A stretch of DNA of 37,664 nt, from NCBI GenBank assembly GCA_027460585.1, contig JAPZAP010000129.1, positions 1-37,664 of the forward strand, read 5' to 3'. This document shows positions 1 to 37,664 of this stretch, in pieces. The stretch comes from Candidatus Methanoperedens sp. GTDB lineage: Archaea > Halobacteriota > Methanosarcinia > Methanosarcinales > Methanoperedenaceae. Both the position numbers and the translations under genes were made by a program. Position 1 is the first letter of the stretch. Every line of letters starts with the position of its first letter. The notes beneath the pieces were generated by a model. It was not told where the DNA came from. It saw only the letters and a program-made list of their open reading frames with translations, and ran no database searches.

Positions 1-658
1 AAGATTATATTCAAATTATGATGTATCATTGGCAATTCTCAACCTACATCTATTGATTATGAAAGAGAAAGGAGTAAAGAAAATTAATTCATGCGGAGAT
101 GGAACAGGATATTCGTTATCCATAAAAAAGCATTACGCTTCAGAAACACAAATAAGAAAAGATAAGGCAAAAGAGTATTCAGGAACTAAGGCTTTCGTAT
201 ATTCTTTTAAATTGATGGATCTTGATTCCAAAATGTATGTGGCGTTTGGAATGAGCTTGAAAAGTGAGAAGGAAACTTTTGATAAAGCGATGGAAATGCT
301 AAAACATATTGATATAGAAATCGAGAGTGTTAGGCTTGATAAATATTATAGCTCATCGTCTTATGTTGATAGATTCGGGAAGGCAAAGGTCTATGTCATT
401 CCGAAAAAAAATGCAACATTGAATGGTTCAATGGAAATGGAAAGATACAATGGAAGATTTTGTGAATGATACAATGACATATCTTCGACAATATTATTTG
501 CAAAACAATTCTGAATCTGGATTTTCGGCTGACAAAAGGTGGTTTGGATGGAAACTGGGACAAAAAAGAGATGATCGTATTGATACAGCGTTAACATGTA
601 CGGGTGTCTGGCATAATTTGATGAACCTGTACCCCGGTTAATTTTGTCCCACAGCCCA
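1..658 (+). mobile_element. Insertion sequence fragment, left copy (3' part)
   Basis: This is the distal part of an insertion sequence whose other end lies beyond the window. Its inner boundary can be placed at 658, because similarity to the inverted copy at 37009-37664 stops there. The terminal sequence reads TGGGCTGTGGGACAAAATTA when read inward from the element end. The transposase stop codon lies about 17 bases from that end. No target-site duplication can be judged because the far end is missing. Confidence 0.8.
2..641 (+). pseudogene. DDE transposase, C-terminal part, frameshifted
   Basis: The reading frame is open to the left edge, so the N-terminus is outside the window. The first segment carries 'SCGDGTGYS' with a likely catalytic Asp, then 'LDKYYSSSSYVDRFG' and 'VIPKKNATLNGS'. 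An extra A near 430 (TTCAATGG, where the right-hand copy has TTCATGG) shifts the frame. The protein then continues in another frame as 'WKWKDTMEDFV...SGFSADKRWFGW', which ends with a likely catalytic Glu region. The type resembles DDE transposases common in Methanosarcina genomes; the exact IS family is not certain. With this lesion the copy should be inactive. Confidence 0.8.
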
Positions 659-2936: not shown

Positions 2937-3233
2937 ATGAAAGACGAGATTGACTCTTTACCGCAAGAACCCGATGCCTGCGAGATAAAAACTCCGAAAG
3001 ACCACAGAATAATGTTCAAAGCACTTGAGAATCCGATGAGGAGAAAGATAGTGAAATCCATCGGAGTTTTCGGGAAAACCCGGAAGGAGATCCTAAAGGA
3101 CCTAGGCATCTCCGAATCACAGTTGAAATTCCAGCTTGACTTTCTCGTAAAGGAATGCTATGCAGAATTAGATGGGGAGAAGTGCAGGCTCAATGCAAAG
3201 GGATTGCAGGAGTTGCTTGCGAATATTAAATAA
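2937..3233 (+). CDS. Winged helix-turn-helix (ArsR-like) regulator
   Basis: 98 residues. An acidic N-terminal tail is followed by 'ALENPMRRKIVKSIGVFG', 'KTRKEILKDLGISESQLKFQ' and 'LDFLVKECYAELDGEKCRL'. This is the helix, recognition-helix and wing layout of archaeal ArsR-type winged helix proteins. It lacks a clustered Cys or His metal site, so its ligand is unknown. The ATG is preceded by GGGGG about ten bases upstream. It is followed on the same strand by a gene of unknown function with its own TATA box. The regulated target cannot be told from the sequence. Confidence 0.75.
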   Translation: MKDEIDSLPQEPDACEIKTPKDHRIMFKALENPMRRKIVKSIGVFGKTRKEILKDLGISESQLKFQLDFLVKECYAELDGEKCRLNAKGLQELLANIK

Positions 3234-4168: not shown

Positions 4169-4227
4169 TTGCACCTAAACTCTATTCTGCACCTTAAAGT
4201 GACGAAAAATCGGGACATTAGGTGCAA
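4169..4227. promoter_or_regulatory. Inverted repeat TTGCACCTAA / TTAGGTGCAA
   Basis: A perfect ten-base inverted repeat, TTGCACCTAA at 4169-4178 and TTAGGTGCAA at 4218-4227, with 39 bases between the arms. A third half-like unit, TGCACCTTAA, lies at 4188-4197. It could be a second regulator site or a looping pair upstream of the copper promoter. It could also be an RNA hairpin. The role is inference. Confidence 0.45.
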
Positions 4228-4252
4228 GCTCACCATCTCCGCAAAGTATATA

Positions 4253-4293
4253 TTTACATCTGGTGTAAAGCAAATATTTACATTTCGTGTAAA
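4253..4293. promoter_or_regulatory. Two tandem operators TTTACA-N5-TGTAAA
   Basis: Two six-five-six palindromes with identical arms lie at 4253-4269 (spacer TCTGG) and 4277-4293 (spacer TTTCG). They are 24 bases centre to centre, just upstream of the TATA box of the copper chaperone gene. Identical arms with different spacers indicate selection on the arms. Location implies a copper-responsive transcription factor; its identity is not in the window. Confidence 0.7.
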
Positions 4294-4310
4294 GTACATA
4301 AGTACAATAC

Positions 4311-4320
4311 ATAAAATATA
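4311..4320 (+). promoter_or_regulatory. TATA box of the copper cluster
   Basis: ATAAAATATA lies 20-29 bases before the ATG at 4340, a spacing that predicts a leaderless or near-leaderless transcript. The two operators end 17 bases upstream, so a bound factor could help or hinder transcription-factor assembly here. Confidence 0.55.
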
Positions 4321-4339: not shown

Positions 4340-4552
4340 ATGATTATTATGACTGAAATAAAAATAAAGATAGAAGGAATGATGTGCGGGCATTGCCAGG
4401 CATCAGTTACAAAAGCGATCGCATCAGTGAAAGGTGTATCAGCAACCACCGTGAACCTTGCGGGTAAAGAGGCAACTGTAACCTATGACCCTAAAATAAC
4501 AAATGTGGATGCAATAAAGGCAGCAATTGTTGAAGCCGGATATAAAGCATAG
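4340..4552 (+). CDS. copZ: Copper chaperone, HMA domain (CopZ-like)
   Basis: 70 residues consisting of a single heavy-metal-associated domain. The metal site is 'GMMCGHCQASV', with the Cys-x-x-Cys pair at about residues 15 and 18. The rest follows the usual pattern ('KAIASVKGVSATTVNLAGKE', 'VTYDP', 'AIVEAGY'). Such proteins carry Cu(I) to P-type ATPases. The gene lies 75 bases upstream of a copper ATPase and behind the paired operators, so it is the likely first gene of a copper-induced operon. An ATG at 4349 is an alternative start. The specific metal is inferred from context. Confidence 0.9.
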   Translation: MIIMTEIKIKIEGMMCGHCQASVTKAIASVKGVSATTVNLAGKEATVTYDPKITNVDAIKAAIVEAGYKA

Positions 4553-4627: not shown

Positions 4628-7429
4628 ATGGTTATGAAAGAAACAATCAGCGTTTGTGGGATGACATGCATGCATTGTCATAAGAGGGTGACGGATGCCA
4701 TTTCTAAAGTAAAGGGCGTCAAATCTGTGGATGTCAGCCTTGAAAATAACAGCGCAACTGTAGAATTCGATGAAGGTGCTACAAATCTTGACACAATAAA
4801 AAAGGCTGTCATCGATGCCGGATATGAAGTTGGTGAAAAGACAATCCCGAAACCAGAGTCAAAAGTTGCGCCAAGTGACCAGATTTGCCCCGTGGTTATT
4901 GAAGATAAAAAAGATACAGTTCAAAAACCTGCCGCAAAGCCCAAATCAGGTTCTTCCGCCACCATCTCACTTAAAATATCAGGCATGACATGCGCCGCTT
5001 GCGCCGCCAATATCGAAAAAGTTACAAGAAAGCTTGAAGGAGTCGTCTCATCCACAGTCAATGTTTCTATTGAAAAAGCATCCATAACATACGATCCCTT
5101 ACTTGTAAACCAGAAACAAATTGAAGATTCCATAAAATCGATCGGGTACGGTGTTGTTAAGGATAAAATAACATTCGATATCGGGGGCATGACATGCGCT
5201 GCATGCGCCCAGAATATTGAAAAAGTTTTGAAAAAACTCAATGGCGTTGAATCCGTGGCTGTCAATTTCTCCCTTGCAAAAGCCCATGTTGAATATGACC
5301 CGGCGCTTGTGTCTGTTGCGGACATGAAATCAGCCATCGAGGGCATAGGATACACAGCAGCCAGCAAAATCGATAAGAAAGAATCGCAGGACAGGGAACA
5401 AAGAGCAAGGGAAGATGAGATCAAAAAACAGCGTAACAACCTGATAATCGCAGTTGCACTTGGAATTCCCATCTCCTTAGGGGATATGAGCAATGCATTT
5501 CCAAACTTACTCGGATTCGTTCCTTCTTTCCTGGCCAATGACAAAGTGCTTTTCATCCTGACCACTATCGTAATGCTCTTCCCTGGAAGGCAGTTCTTTG
5601 CCGGAACCTACAAAGGATTAAAACACGGAGTCACCGACATGAACCTGCTCATCGCGACAGGAACAGGTTCAGCATATGCAGTAAGCGTCGCTGCGACATT
5701 CCTAACATTGGGGCCTGGTTATGAAATGACATACTATGACACTGCGGCGCTGCTTATCACTTTTATCGTACTTGGCAGGTATCTTGAAGCCACGACCAAA
5801 GGCAAAACCTCGGAAGCCATAAGAAAACTCATCGGACTTGCTGCAAAGACCGCCCGCATTATCGTGGACGGCGTGGAAAAAGATGTGCCGGTCGAAGACG
5901 TAAAAGTGGGCGATATCGTTGTGATGCGCCCTGGTGAGAAACTGCCCGTTGACGGCGTCGTTACTGAAGGTATGTCTGCTGTTGATGAAGCTATGATCAC
6001 AGGGGAAAGCATTCCTGTTGAGAAAAATCCCGGAGATACCGTAATAGGTTCTACAATCAATAAATCGGGCTCATTCAGGTTCAGGGCAACAAAAGTGGGT
6101 TCTGATACCGCCCTTGCCCAGATAATCGAACTTGTGGAAAACGCCCAGACATCCAAGGCGCCAATACAGAAGATAGCCGATGTGGTGGCAGGACATTTCA
6201 TTCTTGCAGTGCATGTGATAGCGCTTCTTGCATTTTTCTTCTGGTTCTTTATAGGCTTTGAGGCTTTCGGTGTCGCAGGATCTGCGGCATTTGCAGGAGT
6301 CAGTCCGTTCCTGTTCTCCCTGCTGATCTCAATAACAGTACTTGTCATCTCATGCCCCTGCGCAGTCGGCCTTGCAACACCTGCCGCCACCATGGTGGGT
6401 ACAGGCAAAGGCGCAGAGAATGGTATCCTGATAAAGGGCGGTGAGCCCCTTGAGATGGCGCATAAACTGAACACGATCGTGTTTGATAAAACTGGTACAC
6501 TGACACGGGGCGAACCTGTGCTCACAGATGTCATCCGGGCAGCGAAACACTCTGAAGAAGAGGTTTTGCGCATGGCTGCAATAGCTGAAAAAGGCTCTGA
6601 ACACCCGCTTGGAGAAGCCATCGTAAAAGGCGCCGCAGCACGCAACATCAATGTGCCGGATGCCGACTTCTTTAAAGCAATAGCAGGTCGCGGAGTTGAA
6701 GCAGGATTCGGCGGCAAGCGGATACTGCTGGGCACACGTAAACTCATGACTGATAACGGGATAGATGTGACCCACCTGAATGCTTCGATGGAAAAATTGG
6801 AAAACGATGGCAAGACAGCTATGCTAATTGGAGTGGATAAGGAAGCCATAGGAATTGTGGCAGTCGCCGATACCCTCAAAGAAAATTCCAAGGAAGCCGT
6901 TGGCAGGCTGCACAAGATGGGTATTGAAGTTGTTATGATCACAGGCGACAATGCACGAACAGCCTCCGCAATAGCAAAACAGGTTGGTATCGACCGTGTG
7001 CTTGCAGAAGTGCTGCCGCAGGATAAGGCAAATGAGATAAAGAAACTGCAGGCTGAAGGCAAGATCGTGGCAATGGTTGGTGACGGCATCAACGATGCGC
7101 CTGCACTGACACAATCCGATGTTGGAATTGCCATGGGAGCAGGAACCGATGTAGCTATGGAATCAGCAGGAATTGTCCTTATAAAGAACGATCTTCTTGA
7201 TGTGGTTGCATCCATCCGCCTGAGTAAGATGACTATGGGCAAGATCAAACAGAACCTGTTCTGGGCATTCGGATACAACACTATCGGTATACCCCTTGCA
7301 GCGGGAATATTGTATCCTTTTTACCATGAGATCATAATAACACCTGCACTTGCAGCGGCATTCATGGCAATGAGCTCTGTTTCTGTAACGACTAATTCAC
7401 TACTCATGAAAAGGAGCAGGATAAAATGA
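4628..7429 (+). CDS. copA: Copper-translocating P1B-type ATPase with three HMA domains
   Basis: 933 residues. Three N-terminal HMA domains carry CxxC pairs at about residues 14/17 ('GMTCMHC'), 122/125 and 190/193 (both 'GMTCAAC'). A linker and membrane helices follow. The transmembrane metal motif 'SCPCAVG' is at about 576-578, the phosphorylation motif 'DKTGTLT' at about 620, 'HPLG' near 660 and the hinge 'GDGINDAP' near 818. The CPC motif and HMA type mark Cu(I)/Ag(I) export across the cytoplasmic membrane. Three HMA domains are more than the one or two usual in prokaryotes. The first is separated from the others by a ~45-residue linker. It overlaps the next gene by four bases (ATGA). Confidence 0.95.
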   Translation: MVMKETISVCGMTCMHCHKRVTDAISKVKGVKSVDVSLENNSATVEFDEGATNLDTIKKAVIDAGYEVGEKTIPKPESKVAPSDQICPVVIEDKKDTVQKPAAKPKSGSSATISLKISGMTCAACAANIEKVTRKLEGVVSSTVNVSIEKASITYDPLLVNQKQIEDSIKSIGYGVVKDKITFDIGGMTCAACAQNIEKVLKKLNGVESVAVNFSLAKAHVEYDPALVSVADMKSAIEGIGYTAASKIDKKESQDREQRAREDEIKKQRNNLIIAVALGIPISLGDMSNAFPNLLGFVPSFLANDKVLFILTTIVMLFPGRQFFAGTYKGLKHGVTDMNLLIATGTGSAYAVSVAATFLTLGPGYEMTYYDTAALLITFIVLGRYLEATTKGKTSEAIRKLIGLAAKTARIIVDGVEKDVPVEDVKVGDIVVMRPGEKLPVDGVVTEGMSAVDEAMITGESIPVEKNPGDTVIGSTINKSGSFRFRATKVGSDTALAQIIELVENAQTSKAPIQKIADVVAGHFILAVHVIALLAFFFWFFIGFEAFGVAGSAAFAGVSPFLFSLLISITVLVISCPCAVGLATPAATMVGTGKGAENGILIKGGEPLEMAHKLNTIVFDKTGTLTRGEPVLTDVIRAAKHSEEEVLRMAAIAEKGSEHPLGEAIVKGAAARNINVPDADFFKAIAGRGVEAGFGGKRILLGTRKLMTDNGIDVTHLNASMEKLENDGKTAMLIGVDKEAIGIVAVADTLKENSKEAVGRLHKMGIEVVMITGDNARTASAIAKQVGIDRVLAEVLPQDKANEIKKLQAEGKIVAMVGDGINDAPALTQSDVGIAMGAGTDVAMESAGIVLIKNDLLDVVASIRLSKMTMGKIKQNLFWAFGYNTIGIPLAAGILYPFYHEIIITPALAAAFMAMSSVSVTTNSLLMKRSRIK

Positions 7430-7647
7430 AAGGCAAAACCGGCATGTACAGCATTATAGCAAGCATTGTATCATCAATTATTTTAGTTGTAGTATTCCTC
7501 GCACTGGCGCTGTTGAAAAACAGCGGCAGGGCAATCCCATTGTACACTAATGTGGATATTATGGCTGGGATGATATTCGTGTTCATCCTGAGCATGATCG
7601 TATCGGCATCTATCTGGCCTGGTATTATAGAAAAACGCATGAAATGA
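7426..7647 (+). CDS. Small two-helix membrane protein in the copper cluster
   Basis: 73 residues with two predicted membrane helices, one at about 8-28 (rich in Ile, Val, Leu) and one at about 46-65. A short loop, 'KNSGRAIPLYTNVDI', connects them. No Cys or Met-rich metal motif is visible. Four-base overlaps with both the ATPase gene upstream and the HMA-SafE gene downstream show strict translational coupling. It is therefore probably an accessory of the copper export machinery. The family is not recognised. Confidence 0.75.
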   Translation: MKGKTGMYSIIASIVSSIILVVVFLALALLKNSGRAIPLYTNVDIMAGMIFVFILSMIVSASIWPGIIEKRMK

Positions 7648-9062
7648 AGAAAAATGATTCCAATATGTCAAAATTAAAAAAGAAATCAAAAGCAAAAGGC
7701 GATATCGGCGCAGGTAATCCGGGAACCACACAAGTGGCAGATGTAACAAAGAAATTTAAGGCAAAAGGAATGACCTGCAAAAATTGCGAGAAGATTATTG
7801 AAAAGCAGGTTAATTCGATTGCAGGCGTAAAAAGGATCGATGTTGATTACGCAACAGAAGAAGTAAAGATAACATACGACCCCAATAAAACAAATTTTGA
7901 CAGTATAAAAAAAGCGATTGACTCGCGAGGTTACATTTGTGAAGAATATCCGGGAACTAAAAACATGCCGACGTCAGGCTGGATACTGAGCGTTATCGGA
8001 ATCGTCGTAATCGCATATTTTGCTTTTCAATCCCTTGAAACAATAGAATTGCCACAGATAACCCAGAATATGAGCTATGGCTTGCTTTTCATAGTCGGAT
8101 TACTAACCGGTCTTCATTGTGTAAGTATGTGTGGCGGATTTGTCGTATCCTATTCCACAAAAGGTATAAATGAAGGAAAAAAACCACACGAATTACACCT
8201 CGCTTATGGTCTTGGCAAGACATTATCATACACCATTATCGGCGCCATCTTCGGTCTTCTGGGAAGTATAATCGCCTTTACTCCATTGATGCGAGGCATT
8301 GCAGGGATCCTTGCAGGACTGTTCCTGCTGCTGTTCGGCCTGAAAATGCTCAATATTTTCCCGGTCTTAAGAAAGATCCAGTTCAAGACCCCGCAATTCA
8401 TCTCGAAATTCACTTACAGGCAAAATAAAAGCAATTCCGATCCTATGACTATCGGCCTGCTTAATGGCCTCATGATAGCCTGCGGCCCATTGCAGGCAAT
8501 ATACATCATGGCGGCAGGCACAGGAAGCATGATCGAAGGGGCAAAGCTTCTATTCGTATTCGCATTAGGTACACTACCAGTAATGCTGTCTTTTGGCTAT
8601 ATAACAAGCTTTATCGGATCAAAGGCAACCCATAAAATACTAAAATTTTCAGGGGCAGTAGTGATCATACTTGGAATATTTATGATAAACAACGGTCTGG
8701 CATTGACAGGCGCAGGTTTTGATATCGGGACAACGGCAAACAATGCAAAAACAACGATAGACCCAGCCCCATCATCACAAACCTTAGATGTGAATAATGG
8801 ATCTCAGGAAATAAGGATGGAAGTCAATCGTTACGGCTTTGTTCCAAGTACTTTCACATTGAAAAAAGGAGTGCCGGTAAAATGGATAATAAATGGGAAA
8901 GAATTGACTGGCTGTAACAGTGCGATCCAGGTGCCAGCTTATGGCCTGGCATTTGACGTCAAAAAAGGCGAACAGACCATCGAATTCACACCAACGGAAG
9001 CAGGCACGATAAGATGGAGCTGCTGGATGGGTATGATCCAGGGTAGATTCATTGTGGAATGA
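7644..9062 (+). CDS. HMA - SafE/UreH-like transporter - cupredoxin fusion
   Basis: 472 residues with three parts. A soluble N-terminus carries an HMA domain with 'GMTCKNCEK' (Cys 45 and 48). A polytopic membrane core of the TauE/SafE/UreH type begins near residue 105 and includes 'GLLTGLHCVSMCGGFVVSYS', a Cys-containing signature of this group. The C-terminal ~85 residues form a cupredoxin-like beta domain, with 'LTGCNSAIQVPAYG' and 'IRWSCWMGMIQGRFIVE' holding probable copper ligands Cys and Met. The topology suggests cytosolic HMA, membrane passage and extracellular cupredoxin, so copper handling on both sides of the membrane. It is coupled to the copA operon by a four-base overlap. Confidence 0.88.
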   Translation: MKKNDSNMSKLKKKSKAKGDIGAGNPGTTQVADVTKKFKAKGMTCKNCEKIIEKQVNSIAGVKRIDVDYATEEVKITYDPNKTNFDSIKKAIDSRGYICEEYPGTKNMPTSGWILSVIGIVVIAYFAFQSLETIELPQITQNMSYGLLFIVGLLTGLHCVSMCGGFVVSYSTKGINEGKKPHELHLAYGLGKTLSYTIIGAIFGLLGSIIAFTPLMRGIAGILAGLFLLLFGLKMLNIFPVLRKIQFKTPQFISKFTYRQNKSNSDPMTIGLLNGLMIACGPLQAIYIMAAGTGSMIEGAKLLFVFALGTLPVMLSFGYITSFIGSKATHKILKFSGAVVIILGIFMINNGLALTGAGFDIGTTANNAKTTIDPAPSSQTLDVNNGSQEIRMEVNRYGFVPSTFTLKKGVPVKWIINGKELTGCNSAIQVPAYGLAFDVKKGEQTIEFTPTEAGTIRWSCWMGMIQGRFIVE

Positions 9063-18279: not shown

Positions 18280-18633
18280 CTAAAATATCTTGAGGCCTTT
18301 TAATACACAGACTGCATTTTCATTTATTTTGTAATACTTCCATTTTGATTTCATATAGGAGTCCGCTATGCCACTTTTCTTTAATATAGTTAAATGATGA
18401 GATACCAGATTTTGTTTCTTTTTAGTCAGGTTAACAATCTCACAAACACATTGGTCGTTTTTCATTAAAAGAAGTGCTATTTTTAGGCGTAAGGGGTGCG
18501 AAAGACCGTAAAAAATTTTACTGTTTTTCTCTAAACTCTCTTCATCTGGTGTTTCTTCCAGTCGTTTCTTTAGTTCTTCTTCTAATTCTACCTTTATCAG
18601 CGTATCAGTAGCGCAACATCTTTGAGTTTTCAT
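18280..18633 (-). CDS. ArsR-family metalloregulator-like repressor
   Basis: 117 residues. The winged-helix core has 'LSHPLRLKIALLLMKNDQ', 'CVCEIVNLT', 'KKKQNLVSHHLTILKKSGIA' and the wing 'SKWKYYKINENA'. The 'CVCE' motif (Cys 62 and 64) in the first helix of the DNA-binding region is the classic As(III)/Sb(III) site of ArsR, with a further Cys pair ('RCCAT') at residues 6-7 that could add a ligand. No arsenite exporter gene lies nearby. It is divergently transcribed from a small-protein/ferredoxin pair and may control that or a distant target. Confidence 0.85.
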   Translation of the reverse strand: MKTQRCCATDTLIKVELEEELKKRLEETPDEESLEKNSKIFYGLSHPLRLKIALLLMKNDQCVCEIVNLTKKKQNLVSHHLTILKKSGIADSYMKSKWKYYKINENAVCVLKGLKIF

Positions 18634-37008: not shown

Positions 37009-37664
37009 TGGGCTGTGGGACAAAATTAACCGGGGTACAGGTTCATCAAATTATGCCAGACACCCGTACACGTTAACGCTGTGTCAATGCGTTCCTCCCT
37101 TTTTTGTCCCACTTTCCATCCAAACCATCTTTTGTCAGCCGAAAATCCAGATTCGGAATTGTTACGCAAATAATATTGTCGAAGATGTCATTGTATCATT
37201 TACAAATTCTTCCATTGTTATCCTTCCATTTCCATGAACCATTTAAAGTTGCATTTTTTTTCGGAATGCCGTAGACTTTTGATTTCCCGAATCTATCTAC
37301 GCACGACGATGAGCTCTAATATTTATCAAGCCTAAAGCTCTCGATTTCGATATCAAAGTGTTTTAGCATTTCCATTGCTTTATCAAAAGCTTCCTTTTCA
37401 CTTATTAAGCTCATTCCCATTGCTACATACATTTTGGAGTCAAGATCCATCAACTTAAAGGAATAGGCGAAAGCCTTGGTTCCAGAATACTCTTTTGCCT
37501 TATCTTTTCGTATTTGTGTTTCCGAAGCGTAATGCTTTTTTATGGATAACGAATATCCTGTTCCATCTCCGCATGAATTAATTTTCTTTACTCCTTTCTC
37601 TTTCATAATCAATAGATGTAGGTTGAGAATTGCCAATGATACATCATAATTTGAATATAATCTT
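37009..37664 (-). mobile_element. Insertion sequence fragment, right inverted copy
   Basis: An inverted counterpart of 1-658. The inner end starts at 37009 with TGGGCTGTGGGACAAAATTA, and the element reads outward to the right edge, where it is cut. The outermost 141 bases are the exact reverse complement of 1-141; beyond that the copies differ at many positions, so this is an older, diverged copy. Confidence 0.8.
37026..37663 (-). pseudogene. DDE transposase, right copy, multiple lesions
   Basis: The frame enters from the right edge and reads the same 'SCGDGTGYS' and 'LDKY' segments, then meets an in-frame TAG at 37316-37318, where the left copy has a Tyr codon. Further on it has an extra A in the segment after 'SWKWKD' and a two-base deletion near 'MTYLRQ'. 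It also has a stop in the conserved region. Its lesions differ from those of the left copy, so the two decayed independently. Confidence 0.8.

Follow-up and report, generated by a model that had tools for sequence, protein, structure and literature searches.

Which regulator would act on the paired palindromes at the head of a copper operon in Candidatus Methanoperedens, and to which signal would it answer? The window, by which we mean the whole stretch of 37,664 nucleotides that was analysed, carries two exact palindromes with identical arms and different spacers, their starts 24 bp apart, just as the sequence-only reading had described them. The features around them are as follows.

4240-4254, forward strand: copZ-copA promoter elements, BRE (CGCAAAG) and TATA box (TATATATT), running into O1
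4253-4269, no strand: putative operator O1, TTTACA-TCTGG-TGTAAA, an exact palindrome (TTTACATCTGGTGTAAA) whose position is kept in three other promoters
4277-4293, no strand: putative operator O2, TTTACA-TTTCG-TGTAAA, an exact palindrome (TTTACATTTCGTGTAAA); the spacing of 24-25 bp recurs elsewhere
4301-4317, no strand: third operator, probably vestigial (AGTACA-ATACA-TAAAAT), 24 bp beyond O2 and in register
4349-4552, forward strand: copZ-like copper chaperone with an HMA domain (Pfam HMA, 7e-19), start codon ATG at 4349
4628-7429, forward strand: copA-like copper P1B-ATPase with N-terminal HMA domains (NCBIfam ATPase-IB1_Cu, 603 bits, cut-off 397)
7426-7647, forward strand: open reading frame for a small membrane protein, overlapping the end of copA, with no Pfam family above cut-off
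7644-9062, forward strand: membrane protein with HMA, DsbD_2 and cupredoxin-like domains (Pfam DsbD_2 4e-46, HMA 8e-14, Cupredoxin_1 3e-6), presumed to close the operon

The palindromes had been thought to precede the TATA box. Since the box overlaps O1, that order has to be reversed: the best-conserved BRE/TATA element lies upstream of O1 and runs into it, a layout kept in three other promoters, and a later TATA candidate (ATAAAATATAAA) is not conserved and overlaps the vestigial third operator. The copZ-copA promoters of the window and of the loci L009 (Methanoperedens 'Ig 1'), L010 and L012 align through the BRE/TATA element, O1, the 24-bp step and O2, including a CACAAAGTATATAT block at the BRE/TATA element that has the counterpart CACAAATTATATATA in L256. 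Throughout this alignment the operator arms are kept while the spacers have diverged, O1 being degenerate in L012. A third operator is present in two of the four promoters, and the vestigial one of the window aligns with TTTACATCGAATGTAAT (L009) and TTTACATCAAGTATAAT (L010). The position of the operators 3' of the conserved TATA box suggests repression. An inverted repeat (TTGCACCTAA ... TTAGGTGCAA, 4171-4230, about 45 bp apart) lies just upstream of the promoter. Near-identical open reading frames lie inverted to each other at either end of the window (29-469, forward; 37316-37636, reverse), which suggests that the contig was broken by a repeat.

By base composition, 0.007 exact sites would be expected in the window and 0.49 across the genome; a scan of the whole genome, as had been proposed, returned four, two of them the O1/O2 pair, and none for the reversed-pattern control. 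With up to two mismatches the window count becomes ordinary (4 found, 2.75 expected), so that exact matches and conservation carry the significance of the motif. One-mismatch sites in the same genome (20, against 13 for the control) were read as mostly noise and left uncounted, except for the site of the regulator gene described below. The motif is conserved in relatives and commoner there than chance would have it: in 34 Methanoperedenaceae genomes, all with a BlaI-family gene, exact sites number 193 against 21 in controls, a roughly nine-fold excess, and in 23 genomes of the same order without such a gene they number 8 against 9. These genomes are mostly drafts, and that of the window is 84% complete; the family name is taken from the named contigs of L009 and L012, the closest copper loci. 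The enrichment thus tracks the presence of the BlaI-family gene, and the copZ-copA loci that bear the motif come from genomes encoding it; Methanosarcinaceae homologues of copZ-copA lack the operator array, a few isolated one-mismatch matches aside. Where two sites lie close together, their spacing is almost exclusively 24/25, 28/29 or 53/54 bp. The paired palindromes are kept in relatives with the same operon and very probably serve as the operator through which a transcription factor controls the copper operon, as the sequence-only reading had surmised.

A 119-amino-acid protein of the BlaI/MecI/CopY family (PF03965) is encoded in all 34 of these genomes. In the genome of the window its gene lies at 18007-18363 of contig C19, not on the contig of the copper operon, and the product matches PF03965 (Penicillinase_R) at 39.9 bits for a cut-off of 22.6. 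Each of 38 BlaI-family genes, drawn from Methanoperedenaceae and the neighbouring family f2 with second copies included, is preceded by a site of the motif type, starting at -19 to -21, ending 2-4 bp from the ATG and differing from TTTACA-N5-TGTAAA at zero to two positions; in the window's genome this site reads TTTACGTCAATTGTAAA. One genome (G005) has no exact TTTACA site and eight of the form TTTACR-N5-YGTAAA, in keeping with the operator of its own repressor gene, TTTACGCCAATCGTAAA. The site follows a TATA-like element and stands before the start codon, which fits autorepression, and the gene is predicted to be autoregulated through this inverted repeat. The claim that the regulator is not encoded next to the operon holds for the window's genome and fails for two relatives: L009 has blaI2-ccdA, the operators and copZ-copA in this order, with the regulator gene divergent, and in L011 (ANME-2 B4-08) blaI is likewise divergent from copZ-copA. 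The candidate was also supposed to be undescribed or poorly described. Its family is a known one, and the archaeal group appears uncharacterised in the literature searched: within a partial coverage of papers on archaeal BlaI/M56 or CopY systems, no account of the BlaI-like/protease pair turned up.

The partner in this pair is a putative membrane metalloprotease of about 225 amino acids, whose gene overlaps the regulator gene by 4 bp in 30 loci. It matches Peptidase_M48 (38.8 bits, cut-off 20.3) and, weakly and below cut-off, M56/BlaR1 (19.1 bits, cut-off 31). Across the 30 loci C10, C14, M67, C69, M72 and HEXWH are invariant. Three helices are predicted, and hydropathy with the positive-inside rule, which gives an estimate of the topology, places HEXWH on the cytoplasmic side and the three cysteines and two methionines outside. 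The tandem arrangement of a repressor gene and a membrane HEXXH protease gene is that of the BlaI-BlaR1 and PetR-PetP pairs. In some Methanosarcinaceae a related pair shares this operator and has a MacB-like ABC operon diverging from it, the site lying at about -20 of the regulator gene, often with more sites towards the divergent operon; further off in the phylum related pairs also occur, with an operator match that is weaker or absent. In three Methanosarcinaceae loci (L276, L277, L279) the match to the protease gene contains one in-frame stop, TAG or TGA, which may be a natural stop or a decayed end.

Among 152 distinct TTTACR-N5-YGTAAA sites in the fetched loci, 133 fall within -40 to +200 bp of a gene start, a proportion that describes these loci and is no unbiased test, since most were chosen for holding the motif or the regulators. 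Clustering of the targets, based on mechanically called open reading frames and therefore approximate in its counts, recovered an Lrp/AsnC-type regulator with a TRASH domain (24 genomes), the BlaI-like regulator (17 genomes, too low a figure, as the calls set its start codons too far upstream), an ABC ATPase with paired sites (10), copZ-copA, a thioredoxin/PCYCGC operon (9), a Fer4_5 membrane protein (9), CcmE (7) and CcdA (6). On contig C99 of the window's genome, the operon behind a site encodes thioredoxin, PCYCGC, CcdA, Fer4_5, thioredoxin and a CcmF-like protein. The idea of a copper regulator is too narrow: beside copper export, the predicted regulon takes in cytochrome c maturation, a MacB-like ABC exporter and the Lrp-TRASH regulator. 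Elsewhere in the same genome, palindromes resembling TTTACR-N5-YGTAAA stand beside a TATA-like stretch and TTCGTATATATAC, at 1979, 2129 and 2404 of a locus on contig C137 (L246) and at 2071 of one on C77 (L247); they seem to belong to a different promoter element or regulator.

From the sites, their conservation, the regulon, the gene pair and the conserved residues, all legible in the sequences, we infer binding, repression, proteolysis and a signal. With a probability of about 0.7, O1 and O2 would be operators for the BlaI/MecI/CopY-family repressor encoded on C19, which its membrane partner would cleave to derepress the regulon. A repressor dimer would bind TTTACR-N5-YGTAAA downstream of the TATA box and ahead of the transcription start, and two dimers 24 bp apart would block initiation at copZ-copA. 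The repressor would also hold down its own operon, including the second gene, that of the membrane zinc metalloprotease. The outer Cys/Met cluster of the protease would sense an excess of copper or thiol-redox stress; once activated, the protease would cleave or degrade the repressor, and its loss would release the genes for copper export and cytochrome c maturation together with related ones. Copper is a plausible signal, against which count the absence of any cysteine from the repressor of the window's genome and the presence of cytochrome c maturation in the regulon; against the explanation also count the visible target in Methanosarcinaceae, an ABC exporter and not copper genes, and the N5 spacing, where known CopY boxes have N2 (PMC7253601).

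The main alternative on the signal is a variant that overlaps this explanation: a BlaI-type repressor would bind, the cue would be thiol-redox, haem or cytochrome c maturation stress, and copper export would be one output among others. We regard it as a genuine, if lesser, possibility. The regulon, with CcmE, a CcmF-like protein, CcdA, thioredoxins, PCYCGC, Fer4_5 and a MacB-like ABC exporter, speaks for it, and the conserved CxxxC of the protease could serve as a disulfide sensor; yet copZ-copA and the Lrp-TRASH gene recur among the targets, and a copper-activated BlaR-type protease, PetP, offers a precedent in what the cited texts relate of it (PMC12292863, PMC13421787). A different protein might instead occupy the operators, namely the Lrp/AsnC-TRASH regulator, autoregulated by the same motif in the manner of Pyrococcus CopR. 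Its gene product scores above cut-off for PF24273 and PF08394 and has a plausible copper domain, and in 24 genomes the gene is preceded by the motif, at about 7 bp from its start; the half-site TTNNCA in the motif of P. furiosus CopR (TTNNCAWWWTGNNAA) is compatible with these sites (PMC7830388). However, the CopR spacing is 3 and that of these sites 5, and the sites persist where the gene does not: it was not found in the window's genome at its 84% completeness, in which a TRASH-domain search gave nothing above cut-off, nor in three near-complete Methanoperedens genomes (G014, G016, G026; 96-97%) or two f2 genomes (G038, G046), and the Methanosarcinaceae genomes tested yielded only weak HTH-domain matches. 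The BlaI-like gene is present wherever sites are enriched, so that the BlaI-like regulator is preferred, the Lrp-TRASH protein becomes an unlikely binder, and its gene is read as a member of the regulon.

Two further explanations carry far less weight. A winged-helix protein of the window (2937-3233) has a paralogue beside the C99 site (L002, 444-824), both being small and with almost no Pfam match, and the nearness of these paralogues to two groups of sites might point to them as the binders; the clustering nevertheless places such a gene beside a site in only two genomes, against a site before every BlaI gene, which makes this very improbable. That the palindromes are functionless products of chance would agree with their ordinary count at two mismatches, and is contradicted by the excess of exact matches, the fixed position before regulator genes, the preservation of the layout while spacers changed and the few spacings in which pairs occur, so that its probability is negligible. 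Nothing ties an ArsR-like gene of the window (18280-18633) to the sites, and it was rejected as the regulator.

The preferred pair, a BlaI-like repressor with its protease, resembles several known systems and coincides with none of them. In Synechocystis, copper activates PetP, which degrades the BlaI/CopY-family factor PetR, according to review descriptions (PMC12292863, PMC7896320, PMC13421787); the two-gene, copper-linked design of repressor and membrane protease is common to both, but PetR/PetP controls the plastocyanin/cytochrome c6 switch, which the archaeal regulon does not match, the latter being predicted to be larger and to comprise copper export and cytochrome c maturation. With BlaI/BlaR1 and MecI/MecR1 of the beta-lactam response the pair shares the tandem of repressor and membrane zinc protease as well as autoregulation, whereas its partner of about 225 residues is too short to house a penicillin-binding sensor domain, has a Cys/Met cluster, and is nearer to M48/HtpX than to M56 in Pfam. 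CopY of Enterococcus and Streptococcus belongs to the same family, has the half-site TACA/TGTA and often two operators before the cop operon, with a cop box KACANNTGTA of N2 spacing and a Cys-X-Cys metal site (PMC7253601). The archaeal protein is not a CopY, since both the N2 spacing, N5 here, and the C-terminal Cys-X-Cys are lacking; its score for TIGR02698 (CopY_TcrY) is 22.1 bits against a cut-off of 121.95. BlaI_0696 of Clostridium thermocellum recognises inverted repeats 5 nt apart, with palindromes paired at its targets (PMC8457756), but its half-site is GTCTAT and its context the cell wall. Pyrococcus CopR controls copA, and homologous genes occur in the present regulon; it differs in protein family, in spacing and in its absence from the window's genome as sequenced.

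Methanoperedens is noted for its many multihaem cytochromes and is not known to be available in pure culture. The tentative picture, which we put at a little under even odds, is that of a previously undescribed archaeal copper/redox system, in which a cysteine-free BlaI-family repressor and a short metalloprotease with an extracytoplasmic CxxxC...MxCxxM sensor would put copper export under common control with cytochrome c maturation in anaerobic methane oxidisers, related pairs being spread across the methanogens. It would provide concrete candidates for the regulator, the operator and the regulon of copper and cytochrome c biogenesis in these organisms, and would carry protease-based copper signalling of the PetR/PetP type into the archaea, with specific candidate sensor residues already named.
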